Assembly: GCA_963556145.1 (NCBI GenBank)
Contig: OY744463.1
Location: 1,922,001-1,986,000, forward strand
Direction of reading: 5' to 3'
Source: Hygrocybe punicea
Lineage: Eukaryota; Basidiomycota; Agaricomycetes; Agaricales; Hygrophoraceae
DNA: 64,000 nt
The notes beneath the pieces are model-generated. The model was not told the origin of the DNA. It saw only the letters and a program-made list of their open reading frames with translations, and did no database searches. The translations under genes and the position numbers were made by a program. Each line of letters starts with the position of its first letter. Within the stretch, counting starts at the first letter, position 1. Below, piece by piece: positions 3,684 through 56,999 of the stretch.

Positions 3684-4044
3684 GGTGTTATCGGCAAACA
3701 TATGTTATTTTTCCTTTTGTGGTTTCAACGTACTTATTTTCGTCAACCTTTGGACCTTGAGATTTTCAGCAGTTTGGCAATCAAACCAACCTCTCGTTTT
3801 TTGGAAGCACTTTTTAGCACTGCTGGCATCGATGAACATTGGCCAACGAATCATCGGATGATGAACCCTTCGAGCACAGGCATTATAAGAGATTACTGTA
3901 AATAATACTGTATTCTCTTAGCCTGACAAGAAACAAATTTAAAAGAATTTGTAGCACTCCTACGAGTTATGAGCCAGTTGTATTAAAATTTCTGCCCTGC
4001 CTGTTCCGCACCACCATCACAGCCCATTTTGAATAGCAAGACGG
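3684..4044. other. Intergenic, 361 bp
   Basis: This is a tandem (+/+) intergenic stretch, AT-rich at 3895-3950, holding the probable 3' UTR of the PalI-like gene and the promoter of VPS33. No gene or RNA was recognised. Confidence 0.5.
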
Positions 4045-6773
4045 ATGGCAGCTGACCAACCTGCAGCTGCGTCCACGCAAGCCAATGAAACATTGTTGGA
4101 TGTCAGCTTGTTGAAGGAACTCGGTAGAAAGGGTTTGGTAGACGCACTGAACTCGGTTGGTAGCTCACCCCAAATTATCAACCTCAACCGTCTACGAGTG
4201 ATGCTCAATCTTGCCGTAGGTGAACGGTGCCAAGACACTTGTTCTTGACCCGTTGCTAGCAGGTCCACTAGGATTGGTAACCGAAGTCGCGCTTCTGAAG
4301 GTCCTCGAATTCTTCTTCAATCTCTGCTCCGCCGTTTGCTGAATGGAATTCCGTTTGCTCAGCACCATGGCGTGGATAAGATGTTCTGGCTCGAGCCTGG
4401 TCCGCTGTCCTCGACGACGTCCAACATTGTCTATTTGACTCGACCATTGATAAAGTATGTCAAAATCATTGCTGGTGTGTGATTATCATCTCGTCTTGAC
4501 TGTTCGGTTCAATATGCAAGTTGCGCTCTTTTCAGACCAAATCAAGAGGCACACCCGAGAGTCTCAAAAATACACTTATACCTTGCTCCTTGTCCCGCGG
4601 ACGTCTACGCTTGTGACTCGAATCCTGGAGGAGGAAGGCGTCTTGGGGGATATGAGCATCGCATCCTACAACTTGCAGTTCATTCCGTTGGCAGAGGACG
4701 TGATTTCTCTTGAGAATGATACTGCATTCAAGGAAATATGGGTCGTATGTATGCGAATTTTGCTGCAATGTGACTTATCCTGAATCTACTACACGCATAG
4801 GATGGTGATGAAACAATCATTTATGATTCAGCGCAAGCTTTGGTTACTTTCCAGAAGTTATATGGGCCGTACCCGCGAATTGTTGGGAAAGGCGACTATG
4901 CTGCCGTGAGCCGAATGATTTCTAAGTCAGTGGGAGGAAATTGTTCTCATCGGATGTCAGCGGCTTGCGAGTCTATTGACGCGCAACCTTCCACAACCAT
5001 CCAACGGTGCTCCCGACCCTCTGCTGATGCCGTCACAGAAAATCGATTCCCTCATCATTTTGGATCGCAGAGTCGACATGATAACTCCGCTACTTACTCA
5101 ACTCACATACGAGGGTCTGATTGATGAATTGCTTGGGATCAAAAATTGTAGGTTTTCTTTTTCGTGTCGCCCCGACCATACTGAGACGGTGACTAGCGCA
5201 CGTTGAACTGCCTGTATCTCTGCTTTCGCCCCCAAATCAATCGTCGAATGCCTCGGGATCTGCATCATCCCCGCCATCCTCTAGTGTTCCAATCGGGTCA
5301 CTGAGGAAAGAGAACAAGAAGAAACATCACTTGACGGCTTCGACCGATCCGCTGTTTGCAGAATTCAGAAACATGAACTTCTCTTCGGTCGGGAAGAGAT
5401 TAAACAAAGTAGCTCATAGGCTAGACCAAGACTATAAGGTTTTGATTCGTTATACATCCTCATTCGCACACTCAACGATTGTTATTTATCAAGGCTAGGC
5501 TTCAAGCGAAAACCGTGGCACAGCTACGGGATTTCGTCGGAAAGTTGGGTGGTCTTCAAACAGAGCACCAGTCTTTGAGACTTCGTGAGTGTTCCGTTCT
5601 CATCAGTGTAATCTTGACTGATAGGACACAATAGATACTGGTCTATCTGAGCTGCTTGTGCCATTGACCCGAACGGAACAATTCAACAAATCTCTTGAGA
5701 TACAGCAAAGTATGTCGTGTTTGTTGAATAGTGACCATGTAGTTTGCCTGATCTGTTCTGGAGATCTCCTTGCGTCATACAACGTGAATGCCCAGATTGC
5801 CGGAATCGAGGAGATGATTGCCCAAGGTGCGGACATGCAGGTGGTTTTACGGTTGCTCTGCCTTGCAAGTATCACAGCGGGTGGTATCAAAGCAAAGTCT
5901 CTAGAGAACATCAAACGGGATATCCTCCAGGTGGAACCTATCCTCCGACCCTGTGGTATATTGCTCATTCGATTACGTTAGGCATACGGTTACAATCTCT
6001 TACCGCTACTTCTCTCGCTCGCTTCTTCTCCACTTGCCATCATGCTACCGAATCCCCTGCCACCATCATTGCCGTCTCCAATGACAGCTTCTAAATATCC
6101 CTTCCCTGCGCTGCGTAAATCTCTCCGACTCCTGATCGACGATAATCTGGATGTGTTGGACGAGGTCGAGAACGACATCAGTTTCGTGTACTCTGGCTAT
6201 GCTCCGATCAGCGTACGACTTGTACAGTGCGTTGCGCAGAAAGGCGGTGTGTTGAGCAATCCGGCAGTGGAGAAGGAAAGAGGTGCAAACGTAGATGCTG
6301 ATAGACCTGCTACTACGGGGAGAGTACAAGCCCATCCAATTGTGGGCTGGAAGGGATTTGAAGACGTCCTTGCAAGCATACCGGGAGAAACGTTTGATAT
6401 TGTTCAGAGCGTTGCTGGAGTTGGTCCGTCTGTCCCGGCCATGACGTTGTTGGGTGAACAGTTGTGCCATTTCCAGTGCCGAGCGTCTTTATCTAAAACT
6501 TGCTATCTGACAGTGCACCCGCATGAACAGACGACTACAACGGTTGTGTTCTTCCTCGGAGGATGTACGTACACGGAAATCGCTGCCCTTCGATGGGTTG
6601 GGCGGCAAAATCGAGGTACGCTCTATTCTTCGAGAGAGGGGTTGTATGTTGAAGGATTCACAGGACGTAATTTCCTGATTGCTACCACGGGCATCATAAG
6701 TGGGGTGAGTTTGATTGAGGGTCTTTCTGGGGTTGGCAGGTCCGCTGGCGGAAGTAAGGAAGCAGGGATTTGA
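4045..6773 (+). CDS. VPS33: Vacuolar protein sorting protein Vps33 (Sec1/Munc18 family)
   Basis: Vps33 is the Sec1/Munc18-type SNARE chaperone of the HOPS and CORVET tethering complexes, acting at endosome and vacuole membranes. Hand-spliced exons give family blocks in order: K-T-L-V-L-D-P and G-P-L-G-L-V near the N-terminus (exon 2 starts 4220), [21 protein letters not shown] near 5060, T-Y-E-G-L-I-D-E, a long helical middle, and the C-terminal [16 protein letters not shown] near 6550. Intron 1 is 4156-4219. Several more short introns are needed, and 6420-6476 (57 nt) is a candidate that keeps frame. It ends with a TGA at 6771. The loss of the SNARE-binding region cannot be judged from this model. 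Confidence 0.93.
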
Positions 6774-28797: not shown

Positions 28798-29592
28798 TGT
28801 AAAGGCGAGGTCGGGGTGGCTGCGGAATAGTAATCCTAAGCCTGTGGGGGTCAGCGTAGAAGTGACCAGGAATAGTCTAACAAGCTTCAGTAAGATGATA
28901 GGATACAAATGGTAAGAAGCCACCGAGTAAACTACTGAAATCTATCGAGACTGGTCAAAGCTGATGAAGCCGACGATGTCGGGTACGGCGGGTCGGGTGT
29001 CGGGTGACGAGGGACGTAGAGATAAAGGCGGTAGAATGACGGGGAGAGCGTTGAGGAATCCGATGAGTAATGTGTGCGATGGATTTTACTGAGAGACTAA
29101 TTCTCAGAGAGAGGAAATGGGGGAACTGGTTTCTTATTCAGAGACGGCGCTTGGGCACCGTTTTTATACTACAAATTTCTGTACCTAGATTCGGATGAGA
29201 GTCCTCGGCCGATGAGAGAAAACAAAGGAGAATAAAAATGGACAAGTAGGAAGAGGGTTGCGAGGCGACCATGACAGGAAAAATGGGTGGAAGATATAAA
29301 AAACCGTAAAAGATGTAATATACTTTACTGTATCTCCATAAGGGAGACGCTAGGCGCGAATAAGGCAAGTCCGATGTCGGGATCCCAGTCCGATGAGATC
29401 TATCTTTGATGTTTGAAGTTCCGTGAGTTTAGGAGATGGACCGACCAGGTACGTGAGCGGCTGTGCTAGTCGGTATGCATCGGGTTGTGTCGGGTTGCGT
29501 TGGGTTTGAGCGTAGATTGCTAGAGACGTCGGGTTCGAGCGGATTCGCTAGATATCGATGTTATGGCCTCAGAGGGTTGAGGACCCTCTACA
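28798..29592 (-). repeat. 3' LTR of element A
   Basis: Near-identical to 49761-50537. Differences are mostly transitions, plus an 18-bp insertion near 29581 (a small palindrome with AGAGGG/CCCTCT). Starts TGTAAAGG on the plus strand and ends TACA. Confidence 0.93.
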
Positions 29593-31194
29593 TCTCCTTG
29601 GGTCTTCTAATAGAGACCATCCGTGGTCGAGAATATGGGGTCTCCAAATGTGGGTCGCGAGTGTGGCCAATCACGTGAGTGGCCAAACAATGGCAAAGTA
29701 AAAAAAATAAAAAAATCTCGTTGTTGATCCGACCTTTCCTCTACACCATCACATGCCCACCATGTCCCAAGTCTACGACAATTTCCTCGCCTTCGTCGAA
29801 AGCATCGAACCCGATGTCCGGGCGGACTACGAAGAGGCCGTTAACGCGGTCACCGTGTTTCACAGTGACGATCTCGTTACGATGGTAGACGGCAACGAGG
29901 GGATGGCCCAGCAATGGTTAAGCGGCCGCAAGAAAGTGCTGGTGAGTTTCCCAATTGATTACGCGTGTCTTTAAGATAGCTCATGTCGTCCCACTAGCGT
30001 GCTTATAATGGAATCGTCGCTGAACTCCGAGCTGGTGGTACGAGGCCAGTAACGCCACCGCTATGGGCCGACCGCCAATCGTATGCTAACGATGTCGAAG
30101 AGTGGCTGAAAGAAGCGGCGGACCGAGAGAGGCAGGAAAAGGGAAGAAGCTAGACGGCGGGCAGATGAGGAAGCGGCTACGCGGGAAGAGGAGGCCCCGT
30201 CGACCCGGCACCAGAGACACCGGCCGATGTAGAAGACGTAGATATGCCGGGCGTAGAGACCGGAGACCTGGCTGGTACGACGGTGAGTTCCTGTGTCGGT
30301 TCATTTGTTCTTTAGTCACTGATCCTGGTAACAGTTCACCGGGCCATTTCCCCTACAAGCCTGCACCAACTGCGTCAAGGCTCAAGAGGCGTGTCGAGGC
30401 ATCACGGGCTACATGTGCGAACGATGCCAGAGGCTGAAGAAAAGATGTACTAACGCTACACACCGGGCGGGTGGGGGTCGGCGCAAGGTGGATACCGGAA
30501 AGGGCAAAGAGGTCGTGGTTGGCATGAGGAAGCCGTTGTCGTTCTCGACAAAGCCGATCCGCAGTAGGCCTGCCCGGGCCTCAACGAGCAAACCGCGGGT
30601 CGAGGATGTGGAATTGGTTGAGGACGATGACGAAGACGAGGAGGAGTCGGAGGAAGAGCGGCCAACAAAAAGGCTTAGGGTGGCCTCGGCAGCAAACCCG
30701 TTCGTCTTGACAATGGAGAATTACGAGCAAGTGTCGGTGCGGCTAGCGGTCCTTACGGAGGAGCTGGGAGCCCTGGGCACCAACGTCAACCGTCACCTCG
30801 TCCACTTCAGTCAAGAGTTCCAGTGGCTCCGCATTGATCTCAAACGGTGGAGAGGTACCGAGGTACCTCTCCGGGGGCTCACGCAGGACTCGAGGTGGAA
30901 GTCGACTGGATAGGATAGGAATGGACTGACTACTACATCGGGAAGGCTACTAACTAGGTCAACCGTGGGAGCCTGGTCACGTGACTGGCAGGTCCCACTA
31001 CTCCAAGTGCCCCTTTTCCTCATGGCGACGCCCTCGTCGCCAACTGCTACAGAAAAGAACACGAAACAAACAAAACTGACCAAAAAACTCTCAAGCCACA
31101 ACTCCCAGTCCCTCAGAATGCCTCGAATCAAGGCCGGGGCCTTATATTGTGAAGCGGGAAGTCGTCCTCGCGCAGGGGGCGGTAGATGACCAGA

Positions 31195-32028
31195 CTATAC
31201 AAGACTCTCCTCAAACTCAATACTCTTCGAATGCCTCCCTCGCAAGGGTTCGGGCTCACAACACAAGGCCAAAGATCCCTCGAATCGTCCTAGCAAGTAC
31301 TTAGCGCAGTGTGAAGGTTCAGGTGGTCCAAAATATAACTGTATTGGCGGAGATCGGGTGAACGGGTGCATGAACGTAGTGTAGTGACGGCGTGTAGGTA
31401 GACTGTGATTGACATCCAGTATCGGGGGAACGGGGGACGAGGCTATAATAAAAGCTATAATACTGACGGGGCATAGGGTTGTACTTAACAAGGGCATGGT
31501 ATCCCGACGCGGAGGGGGTTGGCGTATCACGCGAAGAGATCGGGGTGGCTCGTCCAGGTCGAGAACGATGCCGCAGGGAGCTGAATGAGGGTTCGCGGGG
31601 CCAGGTAGGGTGTTAGGAACTGGCCGGGGGGTGGTGACGTGGCGCGCGGCGCGGGTGTCTGAAAACGACGGCGGGGGCTCGTTTGGCGCAATGGAGATGA
31701 ACGGGGGGTCCTGGCCGGTGGAACGAGGGCGCGGGGGATTGAACGAACGTGGGTTGGGAACGGGACATACGAAAAGCGGGGGGTTGAGGGTGATGACGTG
31801 GCAGGCGCTTGGGCATCCGAAATGGATGGCGACGGGTTCGTTTGGGGCAGAACGGGGTGTTGGGTCGTCGAGCGTGCGTCCTGGGGCTTGGATGGATACG
31901 CGTGGGTTGGGGTACACGAAGAAGCGGGGGTCCAACGTTGGTGACGTGGCGGATCCGTGTGTAACCAAAAAGGTCTGCGACCGTGGATTCGGGGTGGCGT
32001 AGGGGAGCGCGCGGCTCCGGTACGTCAA
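31195..32028 (-). CDS. Proline-rich low-complexity ORF inside TRIM-like 1
   Basis: 277 codons on the minus strand over a GC-rich minisatellite. The peptide repeats blocks such as P-N-P-R-S and A-P-N-E-P. No domain recognised. It may be a chance frame in a GC-rich repeat rather than a gene. Confidence 0.25.
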   Translation of the reverse strand: MTYRSRALPYATPNPRSQTFLVTHGSATSPTLDPRFFVYPNPRVSIQAPGRTLDDPTPRSAPNEPVAIHFGCPSACHVITLNPPLFVCPVPNPRSFNPPRPRSTGQDPPFISIAPNEPPPSFSDTRAARHVTTPRPVPNTLPGPANPHSAPCGIVLDLDEPPRSLRVIRQPPPRRDTMPLLSTTLCPVSIIAFIIASSPVPPILDVNHSLPTRRHYTTFMHPFTRSPPIQLYFGPPEPSHCAKYLLGRFEGSLALCCEPEPLRGRHSKSIEFEESLV

Positions 32029-32165
32029 ACGGGGGTCCGTGGGGTCGGATGAGCCTGCCTGGGGCTAGGAATGACGAAAGAAAACAACAATGAAATGAAA
32101 AAACGGGGGGGTCGCAAATGTGACGTGGCCTGCCGCTTGGGTGTTGAGAAGGGTCGCGGGCGTGT
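31620..32165. repeat. Degenerate ~150-180-bp tandem repeat with TGACGT cores
   Basis: The phrase TGACGTGGC recurs at about 31635, 31794, 31942 and 32121, each followed by a similar G-rich segment ending near GGGTTGGG/GGGGTCC. These look like four diverged units. Confidence 0.65.
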
Positions 32166-33169
32166 TTTTGGATCAACGCGGGGCAACGCGGGGCCCTATT
32201 GGGTTGGACATGTGCACCGGGGTAACTGGGTGTTGTACGGCCGTGAATGAAGAGAAGATGCGTGGCTGCGCGGCAGTGGGTGGTGAGGCCGTAAAGAATC
32301 GTCTCGCGAGAAAATCCAGCAAAGAAAGGCAAAAGAGGAGAAAATCCCAAAAAAGAAAGGCATCAGTGAGTCGAAGACACTCTCATCACCACGATGGAGA
32401 GGTACCGAGGTACCTCTCCGGGGGCTCACGCAGGACTCGAGGTGGAAGTCGACTGGATAGGATAGGAATGGACTGACTACTACATCGGGAAGGCTACTAA
32501 CTAGGTCAACCGTGGGAGCCTGGTCACGTGACTGGCAGGTCCCACTACTCCAACGGTCGACCTCAAGGTTGGCGATGTTGAAGCGGGATTACGAGACCGG
32601 CCGCCTGTAAAATAGAAAAAAAATAACGAGCCCGTTGTATATATAAAAATATATCGTGTACATAAAAAACGTGTCAGCTTGTTCACCCAGCTAAGGAAAG
32701 CTGATCGGCTCCCGAAGACATAGGACTATTTGCATCATTCGTCATATCGTTAGAAAACTAAGAGGAACTAAATAAAATGGGGGTATAATGTGGACAGAAT
32801 ATAAATGAAATGCTTAATTGTCGTCGGGTGAGGAGTCTATGGAGGGCGGGTACGTCGGATCATCAAGATCGTTTGAATCGGTATCGTCGGCGTCGGGGTA
32901 TTGTAAGAAATCGTCCAACGGTATCGATATTTTTGAGTGGGCATTAGTGTTGCCGAAGTTCAGTTCAGTCCGGTTCCGAGCCTTTTTGGCGGAACCGCGA
33001 ACTGAACTTCGGGTCCGGTTTGGCGCATGGCCAAACCTGGACCCGGACGGCATTGAACCGTCTCGCCGCGTTCGGCTCACCCCGTGAGCTCCGTTCTCCT
33101 CGCGAATGGCAGGCACGTATCAATTGATACGGCGCTACACTTCGCGAGGTAGTTGGGCTGCGGGGGAGC

Positions 33170-33560: not shown

Positions 33561-33983
33561 GTTGTTGTTGCCGCTGCTGGTGGTGGTGGTGTTGCAGCTG
33601 TCGCGCGTCCATTGGCATTGGGATGGCGTTGGCATCTATCTTGTGCCAAGATGGGTGTGGCCACGATGTGGTCGCGGTCGAGTTCCCTGTCGCAAATGAC
33701 ATTAGTAAAGTTAAGAAAAGCTTGAAACTGACCTTCGCGTTGAGTGTTGATGTTGTGTTGCGTGTTGATGTTGTGTTGCGTGAAAGCTACATGGTCATGG
33801 CCGGTCACATGATACCATTTAACACAAAATAGTAAGTAAAGAAATACGAAAAACAAATGAAATAAATACCGTAAAAATAGCTGCGTTCGCGGTTTGGACG
33901 CGGTTTGGAGCCGTTCAGGAAATCCGGTGTAGAGACATCTATATCTCTGGGTACGTATTCACTCATTTTACTATATTCTCTAT

Positions 33984-36149
33984 TTGTTCTATTATTTGTA
34001 TGTAGTGGCTGTTGTAAATAGTCACAAACAAGTTGAGTTTTGGGTTTTCACCCCAGTGACAACGATCTCGCACACCCCGAATCCGCGCCTACCCAGGCCG
34101 CGTTCACCACATCTGGAGCCCACCGCGAGGACTGTCAAGCTCACTTCACCTTTCCCTCTTTGCCTTTGCCATTTTTGGCATTTTACACCTCTTTCTGGCA
34201 GCAACAGCGCCCCCATAGCCAACAGTGCGCCATATTCGGCAGCATTTCAAGCTTCTCCAGTGGCTCAGCAGCTCTCAGGCCCATTTCCGATGTTTTCAAC
34301 ACCTCCGTATGGTTATTTCGTACCTGTTGCGCCTCCTGGGCCGCAGAACTCGGCCTTTTGGCCTTTTTGTCACGCCGTCACAGCCACGTCACACGGTCTT
34401 CAATATGCCCCCCCCTTCGCTTTTCCCATTTATTTCACTAGTTCCCCCACCCACACTCATCTCAACACATCCAACGGACTCGGAAGACGACCCCCCACAG
34501 ATCCCGCTCGAAAAACCACGCCCGGAAAGCCCCAGAACGGCCGCAACGAACCCGTCCAACATGGAGCGCGCCTCGCGCATCAAACGAGTAACGGAGACCC
34601 GGTAGTCGAAGGAAAGCGCGCGCATTGCAACGGCTGTTGCATGTGCAGTCCCAGGTACGCCCCTCCTCGCCGTTTCCGCGGTTGCCATGCAGGTAAACGC
34701 GTCCGCGCGCGCAAGTCCAACGTGAATACGCATATTGACGCGTCCTCACTCGTTTCCGCCTCGTTTCCGCCCCCGTCTTCGCGTACGCCCTCGCAATCGT
34801 CCCCAGGGGTGTTCCAACACACGCCGCCATCGTCTGCGCCCGCGCCGTCCCCGGAAAAATGCGTCCGCGCGCGCCAACGCAACGTTAACACGCGTATCGA
34901 CGCGTCCCCCCTAGTTTCCGGCTCAAATGGCCCCCCGTTTGCACCCACGGACACGCTGTCGTCCCCGGAGGCGAACCGTGATGCGCCCCTACCGTCTGCG
35001 CCCTCGCCAGCCTCAGGACGACCCGCCCACGCGCCCCAACGCGTCGAAAACACGCGTATCGACACAACCACCTCCGTTTCGCCCTCGTTTCGCCCGCCGT
35101 CACCGTCTACGCCCTCGCCGTCGTCCAAAGAGGCCAGCCGTGACATGCCCCCACCGTTTGAGCCCGTGTCGTCCCCAGGAATCCGCGCTAGCGCCCCGCA
35201 GACGCCGTTTTCAACATCGGCCCCCGTTTCTGCCCCCATTCCACTCCCATTTCGCCTGCCGTCAGCGTCTACGCCCTCTCCGTCGTCCCCGGATGCAAGC
35301 CACGACGTACACCCGTCGTTTGAACGCGCACCATCCCCAGGAAAACGCCTCCGTGCGCGCCCAAGGCCGATTTCCACGCGTCCCGGCGCGTCTGCCTCCG
35401 TTTCACCCCCGTTTCGCCCCGCGTTCGCGTCCACGGCCTCGACGTCGTCCCTAGAGGCGAACCGTTACACGCCCCCGCCGTCTGACCCCGTGCCGTCGCC
35501 AGAAAAATGCGTCCGCGCGCATATCGACACATCCGTCCCCGTTCCGCTCTCGTTTCGACCCCCGGCAGCCGCGTACCACCGACAGGACCCCCATATCACC
35601 CTCCATGACGCCGTACAAGCCGCCCCCGCCGCGTTCGAGCCCCCAACGCCGTCCCACATCGCCCCACCATTGGCCGCTGCATTCCATCATCCAGGACCAA
35701 CGCCGGACCCACGGACCAGCCCCTACGCCCACGTTCACGCCCCCACGCCTCTGTACGGCCCCCTCCCGTCCCAAACGAGTCCGCCCCTGTCCCTCTTCGA
35801 TGCCCCCAACACACCACGTCACCCGCTACCCCAGTCAACCCCGCATGCCCACGATCCACCCCACGGAGCCTCGCAGGCCCATTCGGTAGCCCATACCATG
35901 ACCCCGCGCTCGACCCCGTCCTGCTATGCCCATGCAATGCCGCTCCATGACTTTGTACCCACTACACCCTTGTCGGGCACACTACCAACGTCCATGTTTG
36001 CCACTGACGACATACCTGCTGCGACATTGCTTGCGCTCGAGTCAGCATTGTTATCCCTCAAGGCCCTCAAGGTTCTGGAGCAAAAGTTGGTAAAGTTGGT
36101 GGATCGGTTGGAGAAGTTGGAAGACTTTGTGTTGGAAGATTCCTGTTGA
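33984..36149 (+). CDS. Proline-rich repeat protein of TRIM/LARD-like 2, up to 721 residues
   Basis: The frame opens inside the left LTR and ends at TGA 36147-36149. Residues ~240-515 are five and a half tandem 54-residue repeats (162-bp period: repeat starts at 34701, 34863, 35025, 35187, 35349, 35511). Each has a basic V-R-A-R-like start, N-T-R-I-D-A in the better copies, and a Pro/Ser-rich rest. The C-terminal ~45 residues form a heptad-like helix (L-x-x-L-x-x-L-E-x-K-L-x-K-L-V). The translation start may be later, for example the Met near 34290. It occupies the gag position and could be a diverged capsid-like or accessory protein, but no family is recognised. The other strand is also open here because of GC bias. 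Confidence 0.5.
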   Translation: MFYYLYVVAVVNSHKQVEFWVFTPVTTISHTPNPRLPRPRSPHLEPTARTVKLTSPFPLCLCHFWHFTPLSGSNSAPIANSAPYSAAFQASPVAQQLSGPFPMFSTPPYGYFVPVAPPGPQNSAFWPFCHAVTATSHGLQYAPPFAFPIYFTSSPTHTHLNTSNGLGRRPPTDPARKTTPGKPQNGRNEPVQHGARLAHQTSNGDPVVEGKRAHCNGCCMCSPRYAPPRRFRGCHAGKRVRARKSNVNTHIDASSLVSASFPPPSSRTPSQSSPGVFQHTPPSSAPAPSPEKCVRARQRNVNTRIDASPLVSGSNGPPFAPTDTLSSPEANRDAPLPSAPSPASGRPAHAPQRVENTRIDTTTSVSPSFRPPSPSTPSPSSKEASRDMPPPFEPVSSPGIRASAPQTPFSTSAPVSAPIPLPFRLPSASTPSPSSPDASHDVHPSFERAPSPGKRLRARPRPISTRPGASASVSPPFRPAFASTASTSSLEANRYTPPPSDPVPSPEKCVRAHIDTSVPVPLSFRPPAAAYHRQDPHITLHDAVQAAPAAFEPPTPSHIAPPLAAAFHHPGPTPDPRTSPYAHVHAPTPLYGPLPSQTSPPLSLFDAPNTPRHPLPQSTPHAHDPPHGASQAHSVAHTMTPRSTPSCYAHAMPLHDFVPTTPLSGTLPTSMFATDDIPAATLLALESALLSLKALKVLEQKLVKLVDRLEKLEDFVLEDSC
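34114..34130 (+). promoter_or_regulatory. Primer-binding site of TRIM/LARD-like 2
   Basis: TGGAGCCCACCGCGAGG, 2 nt after the LTR. Identical to the site in element B (53936-53952, minus). The primer tRNA was not identified. Confidence 0.75.
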
Positions 36150-38389
36150 GTTGATTGGATTTTTGTTTTTGTTTTGTTTTGTTTGTTTTGTTTTCAGTAT
36201 TGTCCCTTCCCTCCCTCCCTTTTTCTTTTTCCTATTTCTTCCTCCCTTGCCTTATGTGAGACTGGGGACAGTCTCTATTTGTGTCCCTACTGGATGTAGA
36301 GACATCTATATCTCTGGGTACGTATTCACTCATTTTACTATATTCTCTATTTGTTCTATTATTTGTATGTAGTGGCTGTTGTAAATAGTCACAAACAAGT
36401 TGAGTTTTGGGTTTTCACCCCAGTGACAACGATCTCGCACACCCCGAATCCGCGCCTACCCAGGCCGCGTTCACCACACCGGTGGGCCTTGAAACCTGGA
36501 ACTGAACCCGCGGTCCGGTTCAGCACTTGGCTGAACTTAGACTGAACCTAGGGTTTGGTTCGGGGTTTGAACCGGGTTCGGCTAGGTTTGGAACCGAACT
36601 ACGGCAACACTAGTGGGCGTGGTAGGGTACGACTCGGAAAGCAGCAAATTGAGATCTAGAAACCGCACCGTCGAGTTTGGCTAGTATGTAGGATCCGCCT
36701 TCTGTTTTCCTAACGACAACCATGGGTCCAAAGTACCGCGGTTTTGCTTTACGATCGAGAGACATTTCGATGCGTGAATTTCGGACGAGAACGAGGTTAC
36801 CAGGTTCGAAGTCAAAAACTTTGATCGTGTTGGCGTATTTCTGCTCGAATTGCCGGGCGGACGCGAGCCGAGATTTGGTAAGCTTTTCTTTGACCCGATC
36901 GAGGTCGGCTTCTCATTTACGAAGTTGTCGGGCGTGGATGACTATGAGATTGGTCGTAGACATCGTATCTTGCATTGGAACCATATATGTAGCTTTGGCA
37001 AAATTGAATGGAAAAAGCGGTTCTACTCCGTGTGCGATGTAGTAGGACGAGTATCCAAGGCTTTTGTGTGTAGTGACCCGTTCGGCCCAAAATACGGAAT
37101 GGGTAACGGTGTGCCATTTCTTTTCATCTCCATCACAACTTTTCATAATGGCCTCCCGGACATCTAGGTGGCGACGCTCAATGGGTCCGTTCGCTTGTGA
37201 GTTATAGGGCGAAATGCAGATGTGCCGGATACCGTAGCGGGAGGTGAGATAGTCGAGCGCCTCTACGAACGGCTTGCCATTGTCGGTGACGATTTCTTCG
37301 AGAGCGCCCCAACGGCATAAGATGTCTTCGAACAAGAACGTGCCGATGGTGGAGCCGGTCTTGCGGCGTAACATGCGGAACTCAGGGTAGGCGGACAGGG
37401 AGCAACGGGCTTGGACGATGTATCGATAACCGCCGGATTGTGGCATAAACATTGTGTCGACATACGCTTTACGAAATAGCGAGGCCGGTGTAGCGACGGT
37501 GGGCGGAATGTGGTGATAACGCATTTTCCGTACTTGACACTGATGGCAAGACTGGACGTACCACTTAACGTCGTGGTCGAGGTGCGGCCACCAGAAACGA
37601 TCGAGTAGCCGGGCATGGATGGAGAATATACCTTTGTGGCCGAGAGAGTCGTGAGCGTCTTTGAGTAACTGAAGCCGGCGGTTGGGCGGTATGACGAGTT
37701 TGTGTTTTCCGTGACAGTCTTTATGCCAAAGCTTGTTATCGGTGACGAAGAATTCAAGGGCGTATCGTAAGGACAGATGGTATTCTTCGTCCGTGAGGTT
37801 CACGGGTCGGGTTAGATCTCGTAACCAAGTCTCGATGAGGGCAAGACGAACGTCGGCCGCGCGGGCTTTATCGGATCGTGGTATGTCAGAAACGGCTTCC
37901 TGATTTGTGTAGATGAGGACGGCCGGTAATTCTTGGAGTCGGTCGGCTGTGGCACGGCAGCAGCCACATACGGCAATCGGCTTCGACGGTATGGGGACGG
38001 GTTGGTAGTTGACGACTTCCATAAAGAAACCGTAGGAGTGGTCGAGCCATTCGTCGGAGTCGTTGATCTCCTTGGGGTCGTCTGCAGCGCGGGGACGTTG
38101 GGAGAGTCCGTCGGGTGCACCGTGTGCGGAAGCGGGTACGTGAACGAGTCTAAAGTCAAATAAGAGCACGCTGGCTATCCATCGGTTGATCGTTGCATTG
38201 GGCTGAATGTCGGGGTTGTTGAGCATCCCTTTTATGTACTTCGCGTCGACTTCAACAGTGAGGTTGCGGACGCCGATAATGAAAATCCGGTAGGCGCGGA
38301 GGCAGTAGACCCAGTCGTTTTGGTTAACCCGATCGCAGATATAGTTGCAAAAGGTAGGTACACATAGCGCAGTTGCTTGCTGGGGGGGT

Positions 38390-39850
38390 AGGTTAACCCA
38401 AAAGACAGCTCTTGCTGGGGAAATGTGGTGTGGTAGGTTGACCCAGGTACAGATCTTGCTGGTCAAGGGCACCTGGGTGGGTCAACCTGGTGTCAGCTCT
38501 GCCATGGGGTAGGTTAACCCAGGGCAGCTATTCCAGGATGGATGGGTTGACCCAGGTCCAGCTGTTCAAGCCATGTGGGTTTACCTGGCTTCAGTTATTG
38601 CTGCAGCACTGGGTTGACCCTAGACCAGTTCTTGCTGCACACTGGGGTTGACCTGGACCCAGCTGTTGCTGCGGCATTGGGTTGACCAGGGCCCAGCACA
38701 TGCTGGAGGGGGTGACTGGGGTCCAGCAATTGCTGGGTTGACCTGGCCCCAGCTCTTGCTGCAGGATTGGGTCAACCCAGGTCCAGCTCTTGTTGCAGCA
38801 TCGGGTCAACCCAGGTCCAGCTCTTACTGCTGCACCGGGTGGACCCAGGGCCATCTTTTGCTGCAGCACTGGGTCAACCCAGGGCCAGCTATTGCTGGAG
38901 CATTGGGTTGACCTGGTCCCAGCTCTTGCTGCAGCACTGGGTTGACCCAGGTCCAGCACCTCCTGCAGGGCTTGGGTTGACCAGGGTCCAGCTATTGATG
39001 CAGCACTTGGTTGACCCAGGTCCAGCAATTACTGTGGCATTGGGTTGACCTGGTCCCAGCTCTTGCTGCAGCACTGGGTTGACCCGGGTCCAGCACCTCC
39101 TGCAGGGCTTGGGTTGACCGGGTCCAGCTATTTCTGCAGCACTGGGTTGACCCGGGTCCAGCACTTCCTGCAGGGCTTGGGTTGACCGGGGTCCAGCTAT
39201 TGCTGCAGCATTTGGTTGACCCTGGCCCAGCACTTGCTGCAGGGTAGGTTGACTGGGGTCCAGCTATTGCTGCAGCACTTGGTTGACCCAGGTCCAGCAA
39301 TTACTGCAGCATTGGGTTGACCTGGTCCCAGCTCTTGCTGCAGCACTGGGTTGACCCAGGTCCAGCACCTCCTGCAGGGCTTGGGTTGACCGGGTCCAGC
39401 TATTTCTGCAGCACTGGGTTGACCCTGGCCCAGCACTTGCTGCAGGGTAGGTTGACCAGGGTCCAGCTATTGCTGCTGCACTAGGTTTACCCTGGCCCAG
39501 CACTTGCTGCAGGGTAGGTTGACTGGGGTCCAGCTATTGCTGCAGCACTTGGTTGACCCAGGTCCAGCAATTACTGCAGCATTGGGTTGACCTGGTCCCA
39601 GCTCTTGCTGCAGCACTGGGTTGACCAGGGTCCAGCTATTGCTGCAGGGTAGGTTGACTGGGGTCCAGCCCGTTCTGTAGCGTTGGGTTGATCCTGGACC
39701 CACCCAATCGGCAGGATTGGGTTCACCACGGCCCGGCTATTGCTCCAGCACTGGGTTGCCATGCTCAGCTCTTGCTGCAGAATTGGGTTGACCCTGGCCT
39801 AGCTCTCGCTGCAGGATTGGGTTGACCAGGATCCAGCTCTTGCTGCCATG
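38390..39850. repeat. Minisatellite of the left foldback arm, ~34-bp unit
   Basis: About 40 variable copies of a unit like GGGTTGACCCAGGTCCAGC plus TNTTGCTGCAGCACT. PstI-type CTGCAG cores recur in most copies. All long ORFs here are repeats of the unit. Confidence 0.9.
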
Positions 39851-40463
39851 TGGGCTCATGTTGGTCCACAGGCTTGAGCCACACCCCAGTCTGCCTGCAA
39901 TTATTTCATGTTCACAACATTGACAGAGCTCACACCAGCTCAAGCCAATATTTACTCAGAAACTGCCATATAAAGTCATCAAAAATTTTCAATCTGTACA
40001 TGACACACAATGTACCACGTAATATAATTTGAATGCACTTATTAAAAGCACAGGGAATAGCAAAATTAAAACATTATTATTTTGACAATGCACAATATCT
40101 TACTTTCACTATCAGCTATCAGCCGTTACAGGAGCTATTTATTCCCAATGACAATCTATGACAAAATCAGAACTTACCACACTTCAAATATTGTGCTTTT
40201 CTATTTAATATTGCTCAATTCTCCATTGGAATCAATATATATAACCTCACTATTACTTAAAATAGACACATAAATTTAATGATTATTTTATCCAAATACA
40301 TAATTATATAGTGAAGGGCAGAAGGCAGGTGAGAGGAAGATAGGGGAGTGGGAGAGGGAGGAAGGTGGGAGTAGGAGAGGGAGGAAGGTGGGAGTGGGAG
40401 AAGGGAGTGGGAGTGGGAGAAGGGGGAAGGTGGGAAGGCAGCAGGGACGGGAGGGAGACAGAG

Positions 40464-40535
40464 ATGGAGACGGAGAGGGAGAGGGAGAGGGAGAGGGAGA
40501 GGGAGGAGGAGAGGGAGGAGAGTCGGAAGTACATA
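40464..40535. repeat. GAGGGA purine tract, left foldback arm
   Basis: GAGGGA-type repeats, about 70 nt. The mirror tract in the right arm is much longer. Confidence 0.85.
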
Positions 40536-41119
40536 CCGGTTCCGTTCCTGTTGTCCTCATCGTCTTTGTCTACGTCTCCGCCGTCCTCGTCCTCGTCGTT
40601 CCCGTCCCAGTCATCCCAGTCCCCATTGTCCACGTTTCCGCCGTTCCAGTCCCTGTCGTTCCCGTTCCCGTCGTTCCTCTCGGTGTCGTCATCGTCCTCG
40701 TTGTCGTTGTCATCGCCCGTAGTCCTCGTCGTCCGCCAGATCGTCGTCGTCGTCTGCGTCGTCCTATCGTCCCCTCGCTAGCCATCCCCGTCGTTCCCGT
40801 TCCCGTCGTTCCCGTTTCCGTCGTCCCTGTTCCCATCGTCCTCCTTGTCATTGTCATTGTCATTGTCATTGTCGTCGTCATTGTCGTCGTCCTCGTCCTC
40901 GTCATTGTCGTCATCCTCTCGTCCTCGTTGTCGTCATCCCCATCTCCGTCCCCGTCGTCGTCCTCGTCGTTCCCTGGATGCTCCCATCGTCCTGTTGTCT
41001 CTTCGCTGGCCGTCTCCGTCCCCGTCGTCTTCCCTGGCTGGCCGTCTGTGCCCTCGTCGCCTCTGTCCCCGTCGTTGCCTGCCATCCGCCGTTTCGGCCC
41101 TTCAGTTGGGTGTTGACGT

Positions 41120-42240
41120 GACATGGCGCGGGCATGCCTGTTGCGGTTAATTTCAGGCGTGGCAGTGAGAAAGTCCTTCATAAAAACAATAATATTATCT
41201 AGCATAGTAATAGTAATAAATTTTGAGAAATCTACTTACCTTCTACTTGATTTTGCTGCTGTTGCTGTTCTCGTGGACGCATCGTGGAGTACGCGACGAT
41301 TTGAACCCATGCCGGAGGTTGCCGATAATCTGCCCAAACGGGCGCGAGTTGCCTTATATGTAACCAAGATCTTACTTTTCTCAGTGTAATTGCATGGAGC
41401 ACAACGACTGTGTAGCACATTTAAGACCATGTAGAGATAGAATTAGCCTCTAACTACATCCTCCCCAAATTTTGTATTTTATTATGGCATACATAGAGAG
41501 ATATCCATGATTCATTGATACCTCCCTGCCAATTCCGGACCCTTAAAGTGCTACATTACCAATATTGCTCTGAAAAATATGAGAATAATTTGGAAACTAC
41601 TATGTAAAGTATCTATTGTATTGATGATCAGTGCCTGGCACTTGGTGGTCCCGGAATCTGTTGTAGCCAAGAAATGAAAGGTTCAAAGTAAAGCTGAACT
41701 TGAAGTTCGGACTCAGTTGATGGGTCAGCCACAATGCACAATTCTGTGCATTTGCTTGGCTGAAACAAAGGTCCTGGTCCACCCACAATCAGGCACTTAT
41801 GTGTACCACAATGAGTACTCATTAAAGTACTCCTTAGATTAATTTCAGATTTTTAAGACAAAGTTAGATCATTAAGGGTCCAATTCTGGCAGAGGAATGG
41901 AATAAATTGTGAATAGCTCTTGATGCAGGGCCGAATAAAATACAAATTTTGGTATGAGGGTAGATATACCATATTTACACCTTTTGAGGATCTCACTTCG
42001 GGTATGCATGCATTGTTGTGCATGCTAGAAGATTCAAAAGCGTCAGCGACACTTCCATGTTTGGCAACTCGAACCTGTTTGGGAAATTGGCAACAGCCGG
42101 TTGGCTTTCCCGCGCGAGTTCAAAGCTTCGACTTGTTGATTTCAACAACGCGTCAACGCGTCAGACAGGTGCAGAGGAACACCCAAGGTAAATTTCTGAT
42201 TTGAACATTTTTGTCTTCTTTGCTAATTGTTGACCTTTTG
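41120..42240. other. Central, unpaired part of the foldback element
   Basis: About 1.1 kb without arm homology, AT-rich at 41400-41950. ORFs are below 100 codons and show no transposase motifs. Probably the loop or spacer. Confidence 0.6.
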
Positions 42241-42763
42241 CAGCTACACCACGCCAAACACAGGCGAATCCAAAAACCCATCACCAGAACACAATGCGCC
42301 AGCAAACAGAACGGAAGCCGATGAAAACGGCCACTGTGAGGATGGCAGAAACAAGGCCACGAGGCCGGGTACGAGGATGCGCCAACGACCAGGACGGACG
42401 GCCGAGACAACCACGACGGCAACGATGAGGACAGTCGACGAGGTCACAGACGGCCGGCGACAGGACAATGGGACGGAGAAGGATAGCGATGGGACGACAG
42501 GACGACGGAGACGACGACGACCATCCGGGGGACGACAACAACCATCCAGGTGGCGACGAGGACGACGACGGGGACGGAGACGCGGATGACGACGACAACG
42601 AGGACGATGACGACGACGACGGGAACGACGGGAACGGGAATGACAGCGACGGGGACGACGGGGACAAGGACGGCGGAGACGCAGACGAGGACGACGGGAC
42701 GAGGACGGCGGAGACGTAGACGAAGACGACGAGGACAACGGGAACGTATGTACATTCCACTCT

Positions 42764-42886
42764 CCTCCCTCTCCCTCTCCCTCTCCCTCTCCCTCTCCCT
42801 CTCCCTCTCCCTCTCCCTCTCCCTCTCCCTCTCCCTCTCCCTCTCCCTCTCCCTCTCCCTCTCCCTCTCCCTCTCCCTCTCCGTTC
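42764..42886. repeat. CCCTCT hexanucleotide tract, right foldback arm
   Basis: Nearly pure (CCCTCT)n, about 18-20 copies, against about five in the left arm. The tract has expanded or contracted since the arms were copied. Confidence 0.9.
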
Positions 42887-43439
42887 TCCATCTCTGTCTC
42901 CCTCCCGTCCCTGCTGCCTTCCCACCTTCCCCCTTCTCCCACTCCCACTCCCTTCTCCCACTCCCACCTTCCTCCCTCTCCTACTCCCACCTTCCTCCCT
43001 CTCCCACTCCCCTATCTTCCTCTCACCTGCCTTCTGCCCTTCACTATATAATTATGTATTTGGATAAAATAATCATTAAATTTATGTGTCTATTTTAAGT
43101 AATAGTGAGGTTATATATATTGATTCCAATGGAGAATTGAGCAATATTAAATAGAAAAGCACAATATTTGAAGTGTGGTAAGTTCTGATTTTGTCATAGA
43201 TTGTCATTGGGAATAAATAGCTCCTGTAACGGCTGATAGCTGATAGTGAAAGTAAGATATTGTGCATTGTCAAAATAATAATGTTTTAATTTTGCTATTC
43301 CCTGTGCTTTTAATAAGTGCATTCAAATTATATTACGTGGTACATTGTGTGTCATGTACAGATTGAAAATTTTTGATGACTTTATATGGCAGTTTCTGAG
43401 TAAATATTGGCTTGAGCTGGTGTGAGCTCTGTCAATGTT

Positions 43440-44900
43440 GTGAACATGAAATAATTGCAGGCAGACTGGGGTGTGGCTCAAGCCTGTGGACCAACATGAG
43501 CCCACATGGCAGCAAGAGCTGGATCCTGGTCAACCCAATCCTGCAGCGAGAGCTAGGCCAGGGTCAACCCAATTCTGCAGCAAGAGCTGAGCATGGCAAC
43601 CCAGTGCTGGAGCAATAGCCGGGCCGTGGTGAACCCAATCCTGCCGATTGGGTGGGTCCAGGATCAACCCAACGCTACAGAATGGGCTGGACCCCAGTCA
43701 ACCTACCCTGCAGCAATAGCTGGACCCTGGTCAACCCAGTGCTGCAGCAAGAGCTGGGACCAGGTCAACCCAATGCTGCAGTAATTGCTGGACCTGGGTC
43801 AACCAAGTGCTGCAGCAATAGCTGGACCCCAGTCAACCTACCCTGCAGCAAGTGCTGGGCCAGGGTCAACCTAGTGCAGCAGCAATAGCTGGACCCTGGT
43901 CAACCCAAGCCCTGCAGCAAGTGCTGGACCCTGGTCAACCCAGTGCTGCAGCAATAGCTGGACCCTGGTCAACCTACCCTGCAGCAAGTGCTGGGCCAGG
44001 GTCAACCCAGTGCTGCAGAAATAGCTGGACCCGGTCAACCCAAGCCCTGCAGGAGGTGCTGGACCTGGGTCAACCCAGTGCTGCAGCAAGAGCTGGGACC
44101 AGGTCAACCTACCCTGCAGCAAGTGCTGGGCCAGGGTCAACCAAATGCTGCAGCAATAGCTGGACCCCGGTCAACCCAAGCCCTGCAGGAAGTGCTGGAC
44201 CCGGGTCAACCCAGTGCTGCAGCAAGAGCTGGGACCAGGTCAACCCAATGCCACAGTAATTGCTGGACCTGGGTCAACCAAGTGCTGCATCAATAGCTGG
44301 ACCCTGGTCAACCCAAGCCCTGCAGGAGGTGCTGGACCTGGGTCAACCCAGTGCTGCAGCAAGAGCTGGGACCAGGTCAACCCAATGCTCCAGCAATAGC
44401 TGGCCCTGGGTTGACCCAGTGCTGCAGCAAAAGATGGCCCTGGGTCCACCCGGTGCAGCAGTAAGAGCTGGACCTGGGTTGACCCGATGCTGCAACAAGA
44501 GCTGGACCTGGGTTGACCCAATCCTGCAGCAAGAGCTGGGGCCAGGTCAACCCAGCAATTGCTGGACCCCAGTCACCCCCTCCAGCATGTGCTGGGCCCT
44601 GGTCAACCCAATGCCGCAGCAACAGCTGGGTCCAGGTCAACCCCAGTGTGCAGCAAGAACTGGTCTAGGGTCAACCCAGTGCTGCAGCAATAACTGAAGC
44701 CAGGTAAACCCACATGGCTTGAACAGCTGGACCTGGGTCAACCCATCCATCCTGGAATAGCTGCCCTGGGTTAACCTACCCCATGGCAGAGCTGACACCA
44801 GGTTGACCCACCCAGGTGCCCTTTACCAGCAAGATCTGTACCTGGGTCAACCTACCACACCACATTTCCCCAGCAAGAGCTGTCTTTTGGGTTAACCTAC
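43440..44900. repeat. Minisatellite of the right foldback arm
   Basis: Reverse-complement copy of 38390-39850. One block is of different length (67-bp difference). Confidence 0.9.
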
Positions 44901-45185
44901 CCCCCCAGCAAGCAACTGCGCTATGTGTACCTACCTTTTGCAACTATATCTGCGATCGGGTTAACCAAAACGACTGGGTCTACTGGCGGAGGGCCCTGAA
45001 GAGGCTGTAGAGTTCAAGCTTGGACTGGGAGTATTGGGCTTCACGTTCGTTCCACGATATTGAACCAAAGCGATTCGGATAACGTTTTCCGTCAGCGCGG
45101 ATTTGCATGAGAATGAAGCCGACTCCAAGGACGGATGAATCAACGGCGAGAATCACTTCCCATTCACGCGTGTAGTCGATAGCGC

Positions 45186-45319
45186 TGGATTAGGGAGAAA
45201 GGGTGATCACGTGACCTTCCCACGGTTGGACCTGGTAGATAGCCCTGTTTGGCAGTTAGAGAGTTTCCAGTTTTAGCCTCAGAGCCAAGCAACTAGCTCG
45301 AGGACTCCTTCTGTGTCCA
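45186..45319 (-). mobile_element. Solo LTR of a small element, related to TRIM-like 1
   Basis: 134 bp, TGGATTAGG...GTGTCCA, flanked by GCGC (45182-45185 and 45320-45323). On the minus strand it shares CAACCGTGGGA and GTCACGTGA with the TRIM-like 1 LTR. It splits the RT to RNase H junction of pol. Insert plus duplication is 138 nt (46 codons), so frame is kept but stops are added. Confidence 0.78.
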
Positions 45320-49760: not shown

Positions 49761-50537
49761 TGTAAAGGCGAGGTCGGGGTGGCTGTGGAATAGTAATCCT
49801 AAGCCTGTGGGGGTCAGCGTAGAAGTGACTAGGAATAGTCTAACAAGCTTCAGTAAGATGATAGAATATAAATGGTAAGAAGCCGCCGAGTAAACTACTG
49901 AAATCTATCGAGACCGGTTGAAGCTGATGAAGCCGACGATGTCGGGTACGGCGGGTCGGGTGTCGGGTGACGAGGGACGTAGAGATAAAGGCGGTAGAAC
50001 GACGGGGAGAGCGTTGAGGAATCCGACGAGTAATGTGTGCGATGGATTTTACTGAGAGACTAATTCTCAGAGAGAGGAAATGGGGGAACTGGTTTCTTAT
50101 TCAGAGACGGCGCTTGGGCACCGTTTTTATACTACAAATTTCTGTACCTAGATTCGGATGAGAGTCCTCGGCCGATGAGAGAAAACAAAGGAGAATAAAA
50201 ATGGACAAGTAGGAAGAGGGTTGCGAGGCGACCATGACAGGAAAAATGGGTGGAAGATATAAAAAACCGTAAAAGATGTAATATACTTTACTGTATCTCC
50301 ATAAGGGAGACGCTAGGCGCGAATAAGGCAAGTCCGATGTTGGGATCCCAGTCCGATGAGATCTATCTTTGATGTTTGAAGTTCCGTGAGTTTAGGAGAT
50401 GGACCGACCAGGTACGTGAGTGGCCGTGCTAGTCGGTATGCATCGGGTTGCGTCGGGTTGCGTTGGGTTCGAGCGTAGATTGCTAGAGACGTTGGGTTCA
50501 AGTGGATTCGCTAGATATCGATGTTACGGCCTCTACA
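49761..50537 (-). repeat. 5' LTR of element A
   Basis: 777 bp, begins TGTAGAGG (minus) and ends TTTACA. Same sequence as 28798-29592 apart from scattered transitions and one 18-bp gap. Confidence 0.93.
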
Positions 50538-56356: not shown

Positions 56357-56378
56357 CAGTTTACTCTCTTTCTCCTCA

Positions 56379-56936
56379 CAGCATTTTTGGAAATCCTTGT
56401 CGCGTGTGAAAAAAAAAAATTAAAATAAATAATCTGGCTGGCTGAAGGTACAGAGTCAGGCAATTGCCATAGTAGGGTAGCACATCATGTGACTTTGAAT
56501 TATTTTGCTTGAAAAGACTACTGATATGTACATTGTAAATTCAATGGGAAATATATAAGACATTTGGAATGTAGTAAAATTAGAATGACATCCATTGAAT
56601 GTTTCTGTCAACTCAAAATTTTATTTTTAGTTCTTTATTCAAGGAGGAGGTGTGGTTTTCTGCTGTAACATCACATCACCTGAATAAAAGCTAACAATAA
56701 TAATTTGAGTTGACAAAAACATTCAATGGATGTCATTCTAATTTTACTACATTCCAAATGTCTTATATATTTCCCATTGAATTTACAATGTACATATCAG
56801 TAGTCTTTTCAAGCAAAATAATTCAAAGTCACATGATGTGCTACCCTACTACGGCAATTACTTTGTACCTTCAGCCAGCCGGATTATTTATTTTAATTTT
56901 TTTTTTCACATGCGACAAGGATTTCCGAACACGCTG
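56379..56936. repeat. Long hairpin element, 558 bp, ~235-bp arms
   Basis: Arm 56379-56618 pairs with 56700-56936 almost throughout (CAGCATTTTTGGAAATCC against inverted CAGCGTGTTCGGAAATCC at the tips). The loop is about 80 bp. MITE-like; no clear target duplication. Confidence 0.85.
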
Positions 56937-56999
56937 TAAGGATATATGCTGTCAGGAGAAAGCAATGGGTGACTTTCCATAGGGTATAAATAATCTGAG

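Follow-up and report, generated by a model that had tools for sequence, protein, structure and literature searches.

What kind of sequence forms a palindrome of 6.7 kb in a mushroom genome, and what moves it? These questions are raised by a locus in the 64,000-nucleotide stretch of DNA analysed here (the window). Foldback elements are known chiefly from flies, where inversions arise from them. We conclude that the locus is very probably a non-autonomous, foldback-type DNA transposon with terminal inverted repeats (TIRs), mobilised in trans by cut-and-paste.

Structure of the element and its insertion site

The sequence from 38303 to 44985 is a single inverted-repeat element with the ends CAGTAGACCC and GGGTCTACTG at 38303 and 44985, respectively. 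The 7-bp sequence GCGGAGG abuts both ends (38296–38302 and 44986–44992), as flank comparison showed, confirming the paired ends and the target duplication of the original prediction. Much of the element is made up by its arms, each 2.15 to 2.2 kb long. In a gapped alignment of the left arm (38303–40517, forward strand) against the right arm (42837–44985, reverse strand), we counted 2115 identities and 29 mismatches (98.65% identity), with one 68-bp indel and small gaps; the outermost 240 bp contained 1 mismatch. Plain BLAST gave only 93.5% to 93.9%, which we attribute to the alignment slipping by one repeat unit. One arm has an extra repeat unit, hence the two sums, 67 apart, that the paired arm coordinates give. 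Repeat analysis located a minisatellite with a period of 34/68 bp in each arm, with 19.4 units of 68 bp on the left (38543–39846, forward strand) and 18.4 units on the right (43509–44745, reverse strand), as well as a GGGAGA-rich low-complexity stretch at the inner end of the left arm (40344–40517). The predicted architecture, a 6.7-kb foldback with near-perfect arms of more than 2 kb and a minisatellite in each, was thus recovered in full. Each end carries a 27-bp tip (CAGTAGACCCAGTCGTTTTGGTTAACC; 38303–38329 on the forward strand and, inverted, 44959–44985), within which motif mapping placed the palindromic motif GGTTAACC (element positions 20–27, forward strand). Comparison among copies delimited a central core of 1350 bp (41153–42502).

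The element is inserted in a Ty3/gypsy-like retrotransposon, of which a Pfam search identified an interrupted integrase frame that runs slightly into the element (36913–38472, reverse strand; Integrase_H2C2, 4.8e-20; rve, 4.7e-6, under its cut-off). At least 8 other copies of this retrotransposon show the empty site with a single copy of the 7 bp. A search of the genome for such sites had been proposed with the original prediction, and for the window copy they were found at eight places: in L008, L012 and L034 the stretches matching the left and right flanks share exactly 7 bp, and further sites lie at C1:8067365–8067371, C8:1234547–1234553, C7:5203240–5203246, C1:6783832–6783838 and C1:3922337–3922343. 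The window itself carries the empty site of another copy, L014, at 37782–37788 and, if two unaligned bases are allowed, that of L011 at 37532–37538.

An apparently young family dispersed through the genome

In the 92.2-Mb genome, the 27-bp tip had 352 matches (180 + 172) at up to 3 mismatches, and the reversed control had none (0 + 0). The family thus comprises roughly 176 copies, provided that all 352 tips pair, and by estimate about 1.4% of the genome; the exact tip was not found in viral contigs. An exact 7-bp duplication flanked 26 of the 30 copies with both ends read but none of 870 cross-paired controls, and a further tip pair (C3:2942772–2964020, duplication AGTGGTG) brings the total to 27 of 31 pairs. 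For the 4 of 30 copies whose flanks do not match, deletion or inter-copy recombination is the best explanation. Base preference among the 26 duplications is weak: at none of the 7 positions does one base occur in more than 12 of the 26. Neither an absence of other genomic copies nor flanks without a 7-bp duplication, which had been named beforehand as findings against the prediction, was observed; instead, copy number, duplications and empty sites support one mobile palindrome over chance repeats. We also collected 64 tips by exact 27-bp match, and their invariance over 27 bp is no evidence of conservation because the exact match selected them. One apparent odd-tipped variant (L039) was rejected, being a truncated, rearranged copy. 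In the other copies in which the core was found (n = 18), aligned core stretches were 94.8% to 99.3% identical; 15 had the whole core, an insert divided it in L010 and L017, and part of it was present in L025. It was not detected in L009, a copy with an N gap.

Such gaps bear on whether the palindrome could be an assembly artefact. Of the 20 copies whose full length was read, 4 are interrupted around the middle by a gap of 100 Ns, which indicates that palindromes trouble this assembly, and in three of these (L020, L022 and L023) two cores lie astride the gap. Against an artefact, the window copy is free of gaps, as are 15 further copies, and the duplications and empty sites are consistent with real insertions, making this explanation barely credible.

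Arm identity inside copies had a median of 97.9% (20 copies), left arms compared between copies had a median of 96.7%, and the arm most similar to a given arm was its own partner in just 4 of 20 copies. Since identity within copies barely exceeds that between copies and the partner is so seldom the closest arm, the family looks young rather than subject to strong arm-to-arm conversion, and these values give little support to concerted evolution of the arms. Youth of the window insertion is separately supported by the LTR-like repeats of the host retrotransposon, which differ at only 19 of 773 bases. Of the two origins first proposed for the near-identical arms, recent insertion is therefore favoured over strong ongoing conversion.

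Motif arrays and coding capacity

Each arm contains 34 dyad motifs of the GGTTRACC type, most commonly spaced 34 bp apart. The motif is also present in the tip, is absent from element positions 1560–5190, and occurs 4 times in the remaining 57.3 kb of the window. The array units resemble element positions 74–115 and 141–198 (0 of 500 shuffles as good for each) and positions 20–47 (6 of 500 shuffles as good). In the variant GGTCAACC, both centre bases are altered together (113 of 113 cases, against 10.7 expected under independence); as this variant sits at about four homologous places in the array, the 113 co-changes represent few independent events. The CCAGC block of the 34-bp unit is conserved as well as the motif, which counts against a special role of the latter. 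Altogether, the sequence comparisons suggest that the array is probably a transposase-binding array grown from the end of the element. The single-strand fold of the tip was no better than that of shuffled sequences.

We propose that a transposase supplied in trans would move the element by cut-and-paste, with both the CAGTAGACCC tip and the GGTTRACC dyad motif as its recognition sequences. Over the outer 1.5 kb of each arm the motif recurs about every 34 bp, and the array appears to derive from the element's own subterminal sequence.

The original prediction that the element has no transposase was borne out, as no transposase was seen in the long frames tested from these 20 fully read copies, a search that a gene of short exons could escape. 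The core holds an exon-like open frame (41923–42187, forward strand) followed by an intron-like stretch (42188–42243). We rejected the region 41923–42243 as a working gene: the corresponding frame of a diverged subfamily has a stop and length changes, and the flanking non-coding DNA is, judged by eye in the same comparison, about as conserved. The exon-like frame also had no Pfam match. We therefore judge the core to be conserved without sign of coding constraint and the frame to be a relic. Low-complexity frames also gave Pfam matches (to TrAA12, TFIIF_alpha and others), all of which were under cut-off and were set aside.

Affinities and candidate sources of transposase

Long near-identical arms, tandem repeats within them, and dispersed copies with duplications and empty sites are the structural features of foldback elements. 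In its workings the element resembles Galileo or Foldback, without being demonstrably either. A description of the family was not found in the open PMC library, and the search of that library agrees with the earlier statement that such elements are rarely described in mushrooms.

The tip of Galileo differs from that of the present family. The likeness that the original prediction drew to this P-superfamily element of Drosophila holds for architecture and duplication length: Galileo has 7-bp duplications, some unequal 7-bp flanks, long, tandemly repetitive TIRs, TIR-only copies and subfamilies in the descriptions available from PMC3573991 and PMC2775673. Membership of the P superfamily, with the transposase lost or undetected, gained no support and is very unlikely. 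The host is a fungus, the 26 duplications do not follow the GTAGTAC target consensus given in the relevant part of PMC2775673, and the P-type TNP-like RNaseH domain (PF21787) had 0 matches in the genome, a search in which the control genomes gave none either. Still less probable is a Mutator/Foldback (NOF-type) element. Tetris, a Drosophila foldback element without coding capacity and with tandem repeats in its TIRs, is assigned to Mutator in the account of its authors, where its TIR-220 repeat is thought to be TIR-derived (PMC4079207), like the array here, and the genome contains 22 MULE matches, 20 above cut-off. Yet the repeat unit here is 34 bp and that of Tetris about 220 bp according to the same account, and the duplications, which measure exactly 7 bp in 26 of the 30 copies, fall outside the 8 to 10 bp of Mutator/Foldback, Tetris included. 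None of 10 MULE positions, 60 hAT positions or 61 KDZ positions among the matches listed lay inside 37 tip pairs (C1, C2, C3, C6 and C7), the KDZ and hAT positions being drawn from 150 of 429 and 150 of 573 candidates scored, respectively; a KDZ gene absent from those lists was later detected inside one tip pair. The ends of hAT elements follow CAGNG/YARNG, and the family tip, CAGTA, departs from this rule with A as its fifth base. A hAT-type element of the 7-bp (hAT7-like) kind is accordingly unlikely, even though hAT7 of rust fungi (Pucciniales), also basidiomycetes, generates 7-bp duplications in the portion of PMC12730594 that treats it and the genome contains at least 152 hAT matches. No hAT position among those listed fell between tips, and one lay on the inner side of an unpaired tip, some 11.5 kb from it.

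For the element mobilised in trans, we favour a KDZ transposase of the Kyakuja type, to which we give nearly an even chance, because of the 7-bp duplications, the CA..TG ends, the many KDZ and TET/JBP genes and one KDZ-bearing tip pair. The genome has at least 186 KDZ matches and 122 TET/JBP matches, 96 of the latter above cut-off. Kyakuja elements of Agaricomycotina, the host group, are reported to have 7-bp duplications and CA..TG ends, both present here, in the sections of PMC12730594 on this group. These sections also describe TET/JBP-bearing Kyakuja families that lack TIRs, as in two families from Laccaria, and encode a transposase and TET/JBP; this conflicts with the 2.2-kb TIRs here, between which no such gene was seen. 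KDZ elements of Cryptococcus have TIRs but duplications of 8 bp or 4–8 bp in the corresponding part of PMC12810828. Searches for a gene-bearing partner by its ends gave 0 matches for CAGTAGACCCAGTCG when the next base was not T, and 45 for CAGTAGACCC with another 12th base, fewer than the 214 of the control, so that this candidate was rejected. An intact transposase was not found between family tips. Tentatively, the family may be a KDZ foldback lineage in which Kyakuja-type ends expanded the dyad motif to about 34 transposase sites per end, lost their genes and now out-compete gene-bearing elements for the enzyme.

A young, high-copy mushroom family whose empty sites are clean and whose arrayed motifs can be counted would allow a direct test of whether arrays of end sites raise transposition in trans, and of whether such palindromes break and rearrange the chromosomes of fungi. 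Should the enzyme prove to be a KDZ transposase, the family would also supply a substrate for the KDZ superfamily, whose end recognition has, to our knowledge, been little studied.

Two long tip pairs

The KDZ-bearing tip pair (C3:2942772–2964020, 21.2 kb, of which about 3.6 kb were read) could be the autonomous form of the family, which would then itself be a KDZ lineage and not a borrower. Its matching AGTGGTG duplications, its ends (98% identical over 300 bp), and interior KDZ pieces above cut-off (2.5e-11 and 2.5e-10) with a TET/JBP match (2.1e-14) speak for this. It also lacks the core 34-mer, which is no proof because three other pairs of the 37 lack it too. We consider this origin doubtful, as the family sequence on the left ends abruptly about 2.94 kb in and gives way to DNA that starts with CAG and has a 44-bp tandem repeat, a break resembling a nested Kyakuja end, and the KDZ frame is decayed and broken by stops. 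A 30-kb pair (C1:8208030–8237883), with matches to Transposase_21/tnp2 (24 bits) and TET/JBP (1.9e-4) that are both under cut-off, was rejected as a candidate: it is a copy of the diverged subfamily, interrupted by other DNA, that retains the core.

A 6.7-kb palindrome inserted as a unit with a 7-bp target duplication

The window lies at G000:C3:1922001-1986000 of the 92.2-Mb host genome. Its palindromic element at 38303-44985, originally predicted to have minisatellite arms and a 7-bp target duplication, was borne out by alignment of the arms and by the flanks. The element ends are CAGTAGACCC and GGGTCTACTG, and GCGGAGG stands on either side. In a gapped alignment, the arms (38303-40517 and 42837-44985) shared 2115 aligned bases and differed at 29 (98.65% identity), with one 68-bp indel, corresponding to one minisatellite unit, and small gaps. 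Plain BLAST gave only 93.5-93.9% identity, which we attribute to slipping by one minisatellite unit. The 34/68-bp minisatellites occupy 38543-39846 in the left arm and 43509-44745 in the right arm; inward of them, each arm continues with AT-rich sequence and GGGAGA-type runs. A core (41153-42502) lies in the centre of the element.

This copy interrupts the integrase frame of a retrotransposon (Integrase_H2C2, 4.8e-20; rve, 4.7e-6, below its cut-off) that we infer to be Ty3/gypsy-like. The matches of the left and right flanks overlap by exactly 7 bp in three retrotransposon copies (L008, L012, and L034) and at five more empty sites, three on contig C1, one on C7, and one on C8. Conversely, the window carries the uninterrupted sites of two other family copies located in the same retrotransposon family, L014 (37782-37788) and L011 (37532-37538, two bases unaligned). 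No other evidence speaks as strongly as these sites for insertion of the palindrome in one piece with duplication of 7 bp.

The genome-wide search for further copies and empty sites that the original prediction called for returned both: 352 matches to the terminal 27 bp (the tip) when 3 mismatches were allowed (180 forward and 172 reverse; none with the reversed control), and at least 8 empty sites of the window copy (best 40 of 243 and best 40 of 350 candidates scored). Pairing was performed on 100 listed tip matches, all exact; 74 paired into 37 elements and 26 remained single. These elements had a median length of 7401 bp, with 32 of the 37 between 4 and 10.1 kb. If every tip pairs, we estimate approximately 176 copies, or approximately 1.3 Mb (1.4% of the genome). 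Both ends were read in 30 copies (the window copy, 19 from the best genome matches, and 10 from the first-listed tip matches), and 26 of these have an exact 7-bp duplication, whereas cross-paired left and right flanks were identical over 7 bp in 0 of 870 combinations. L019 showed a single end, and a 31st pair, C3:2942772-2964020, had AGTGGTG at both flanks.

Four of the 30 copies (L012, L013, L015, and L027) lack the duplication. The flanks of L012 and L027 match the same retrotransposon family at places approximately 1.9 kb (window 45423 and 47345) and 120 bp apart, respectively, which is best explained by a deletion or an exchange between two insertions. Galileo chimeric copies are likewise reported to carry unequal 7-mers (PMC3573991); no swapped 7-mer partners were found among the 30 copies. 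Separately, L020, L022, and L023 (C6:5274790, C2:7244184, and C2:5259526) contain two cores astride a 100-N gap, where contig ends were probably left unjoined in the middle of the palindrome.

In the main, the interpretation as one mobile foldback element is upheld. Its mode of operation resembles that of Galileo and Foldback, and membership of either goes beyond the evidence. The family is new and its structural kind already known; we found no description of such a family in the host's group in the open-access literature.

The family is young and comprises subfamilies

The interrupted Ty3/gypsy-like element is flanked by 773-bp LTR-like direct repeats (28798-29570 and 49761-50533) that are 97.5% identical, all 19 differences among the 773 positions being transitions. 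We infer that they are LTRs; no flanking duplication was seen beside them and neither terminates in CA. The foldback element inserted later than its host retrotransposon. Near-identical arms had been read as recent insertion or ongoing arm-to-arm conversion. Median arm identity was 97.9% within a copy versus 96.7% for left arms between copies, and in 4 of 20 copies an arm's nearest match was its own partner (shared 25-mers). Together these results indicate a young family and give no clear sign of strong conversion. Subfamilies exist, since a 30-kb interrupted copy (C1:8208030-8237883) is mostly 73-84% identical to other copies over long stretches. Within this copy, the two arms agree at 97.7% over 1.3 kb and at 86% over another 745 bp, where repeat registers differ, and its 7-bp duplication is perfect. 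A stretch within it (L059, C1:8212000-8219999) has a Transposase_21 match of 24 bits, below cut-off, as the relic of a tnp2-type transposase.

The arms carry a motif array

The window copy contains 68 GGTTRACC/GGTYAACC motifs, 34 per arm, most commonly spaced by 34 bp, with none between element positions 1560 and 5190 and 4 in the remaining 57.3 kb of the window. Motifs at positions 20 (in the tip), 89, 134, and 178 precede the array, which starts at 241. Across 20 copies we counted 19-46 motifs per arm (within 1700 bp of the end), with the first places 20, 89, and 134 kept in 37 of 40 arms; some copies have up to 25 motifs also in the centre. The likeness of the array unit to element positions 74-115 and 141-198 beat 500 of 500 shuffles, and that to positions 20-47 beat 494 of 500, so that the array probably grew out of subterminal sequence. 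For Tetris, an array origin from its own terminal sequence has similarly been proposed (PMC4079207). Among approximately 1,420 units, the consensus averaged 95% over the eight motif positions and approximately 80% over the other 26, with the block CCAGC conserved as strongly as the motif. In the variant GGTCAACC, which is the motif from the opposite strand, both centre bases were changed in 113 of 113 cases (10.7 expected), these cases occupying about four homologous places. By analogy with Galileo, for which secondary transposase sites have been reported by others (cited in PMC3573991 and PMC4079207), we read the array as a putative set of such sites.

Coding capacity and candidate transposases

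In agreement with the original prediction that the element has no transposase, Pfam returned no transposase match in 4 frames of the window element and 10 long frames of 6 other copies; the only matches were low-complexity ones below cut-offs. Frames of at least 200 residues in 20 copies read end to end resembled the minisatellite, low-complexity runs, or the core (first 30 residues inspected). These tests concern long frames, and a gene made of short exons may escape them. The core was found in 18 other copies, with 94.8-99.3% identity over aligned stretches, and falls into two haplotype groups with many single C/T and G/A changes. A core 34-mer occurs 102 times in the genome (control 0) and in 33 of the 37 tip pairs. 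The core has an exon-like frame and an intron-like stretch. Of 19 aligned cores, 18 are free of stops in this frame, the exception being L024 with one; in L012 the length is off by one base. In the diverged subfamily, however, the frame contains a stop and length changes, and we regard the core as a non-coding relic.

Cut-and-paste movement in trans is suggested by the duplications and empty sites, together with the absence of a gene from the copies. Exactly 7-bp duplications with CA..TG ends are described for Kyakuja (KDZ superfamily, Agaricomycotina; PMC12730594), and 7-bp duplications also for hAT7 in rusts and for Galileo; Cryptococcus KDZ elements reportedly have TIRs of 139-241 bp and duplicate 8 bp or 4-8 bp of target (PMC12810828). 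The genome contains at least 186 KDZ matches (best 150 of 429 candidates scored), at least 152 hAT matches (best 150 of 573), 22 MULE matches (20 over cut-off), and 122 TET/JBP matches (96 over cut-off); PF21787 gave none, the control set being likewise silent. Among the matches listed on C1, C2, C3, C6, and C7, no KDZ (61), hAT (60), or MULE (10) position fell inside the 37 tip pairs, and one KDZ and one hAT position lay no more than 15 kb from an unpaired tip, on its inward side.

The 21.2-kb pair C3:2942772-2964020 contains a TET/JBP match (2.1e-14), which is not improbable by chance, as approximately 0.2 such matches are expected in the five long tip pairs. In 1.5 kb read at a spot guessed from the KDZ-TET/JBP spacing at C2:4777507-4781473, KDZ pieces over cut-off (2.5e-11 and 2.5e-10) were found in a frame broken by stops. 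The ends of the pair are 98% identical over 300 bp; like three more of the 37 pairs, it lacks the core 34-mer. A decayed KDZ and a TET/JBP match between family tips with an AGTGGTG duplication could represent an autonomous family member, a reading we consider rather unlikely: on the left, family sequence breaks off abruptly at approximately 2.94 kb into foreign DNA that starts with CAG and carries a 44-bp tandem repeat. The fit is no worse, and may be better, for a nested Kyakuja-like element whose own end supplies the CAG and the subterminal repeats. The part read on the right (2961000-2961839) showed no family sequence. The tip decamer with another 12th base occurs at 45 genomic places, 13 of which read CAGTAGACCCTA; six of the latter are found 2.1-3.4 kb downstream of a listed TET/JBP start on the same strand, versus 0 of the 32 others (approximately 0.01 expected per place). 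This shows the decamer at a more or less constant position within a repeat family that bears TET/JBP, and we left it out as support because it points the wrong way to form an end of that element.

Other features of the window

A 133-bp insert in the retrotransposon (45186-45318), with AGCGC on either side, is missing from 39 other scored copies; in nearly all of them the matches to its two sides share a few bases (5 where inspected by eye), and C1:9038142 shows no overlap. PalI-type proteins of many mushroom-forming fungi match one window protein, the best-placed named ones with 57-60% identity (120 of 565 matches listed), which places the host among the Agaricomycetes, with no close named relative among the matches listed. 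A 570-bp palindrome (56373-56942; arms 56373-56641 and 56681-56942, approximately 90% complementary) lacks the tip of the 6.7-kb element and appears MITE- or hairpin-like. Two stretches bounded by direct repeats, 33928-36478 (184 bp, 100%) and 30844-32553 (163 bp, 99.4%), resemble LTR-like nested insertions.
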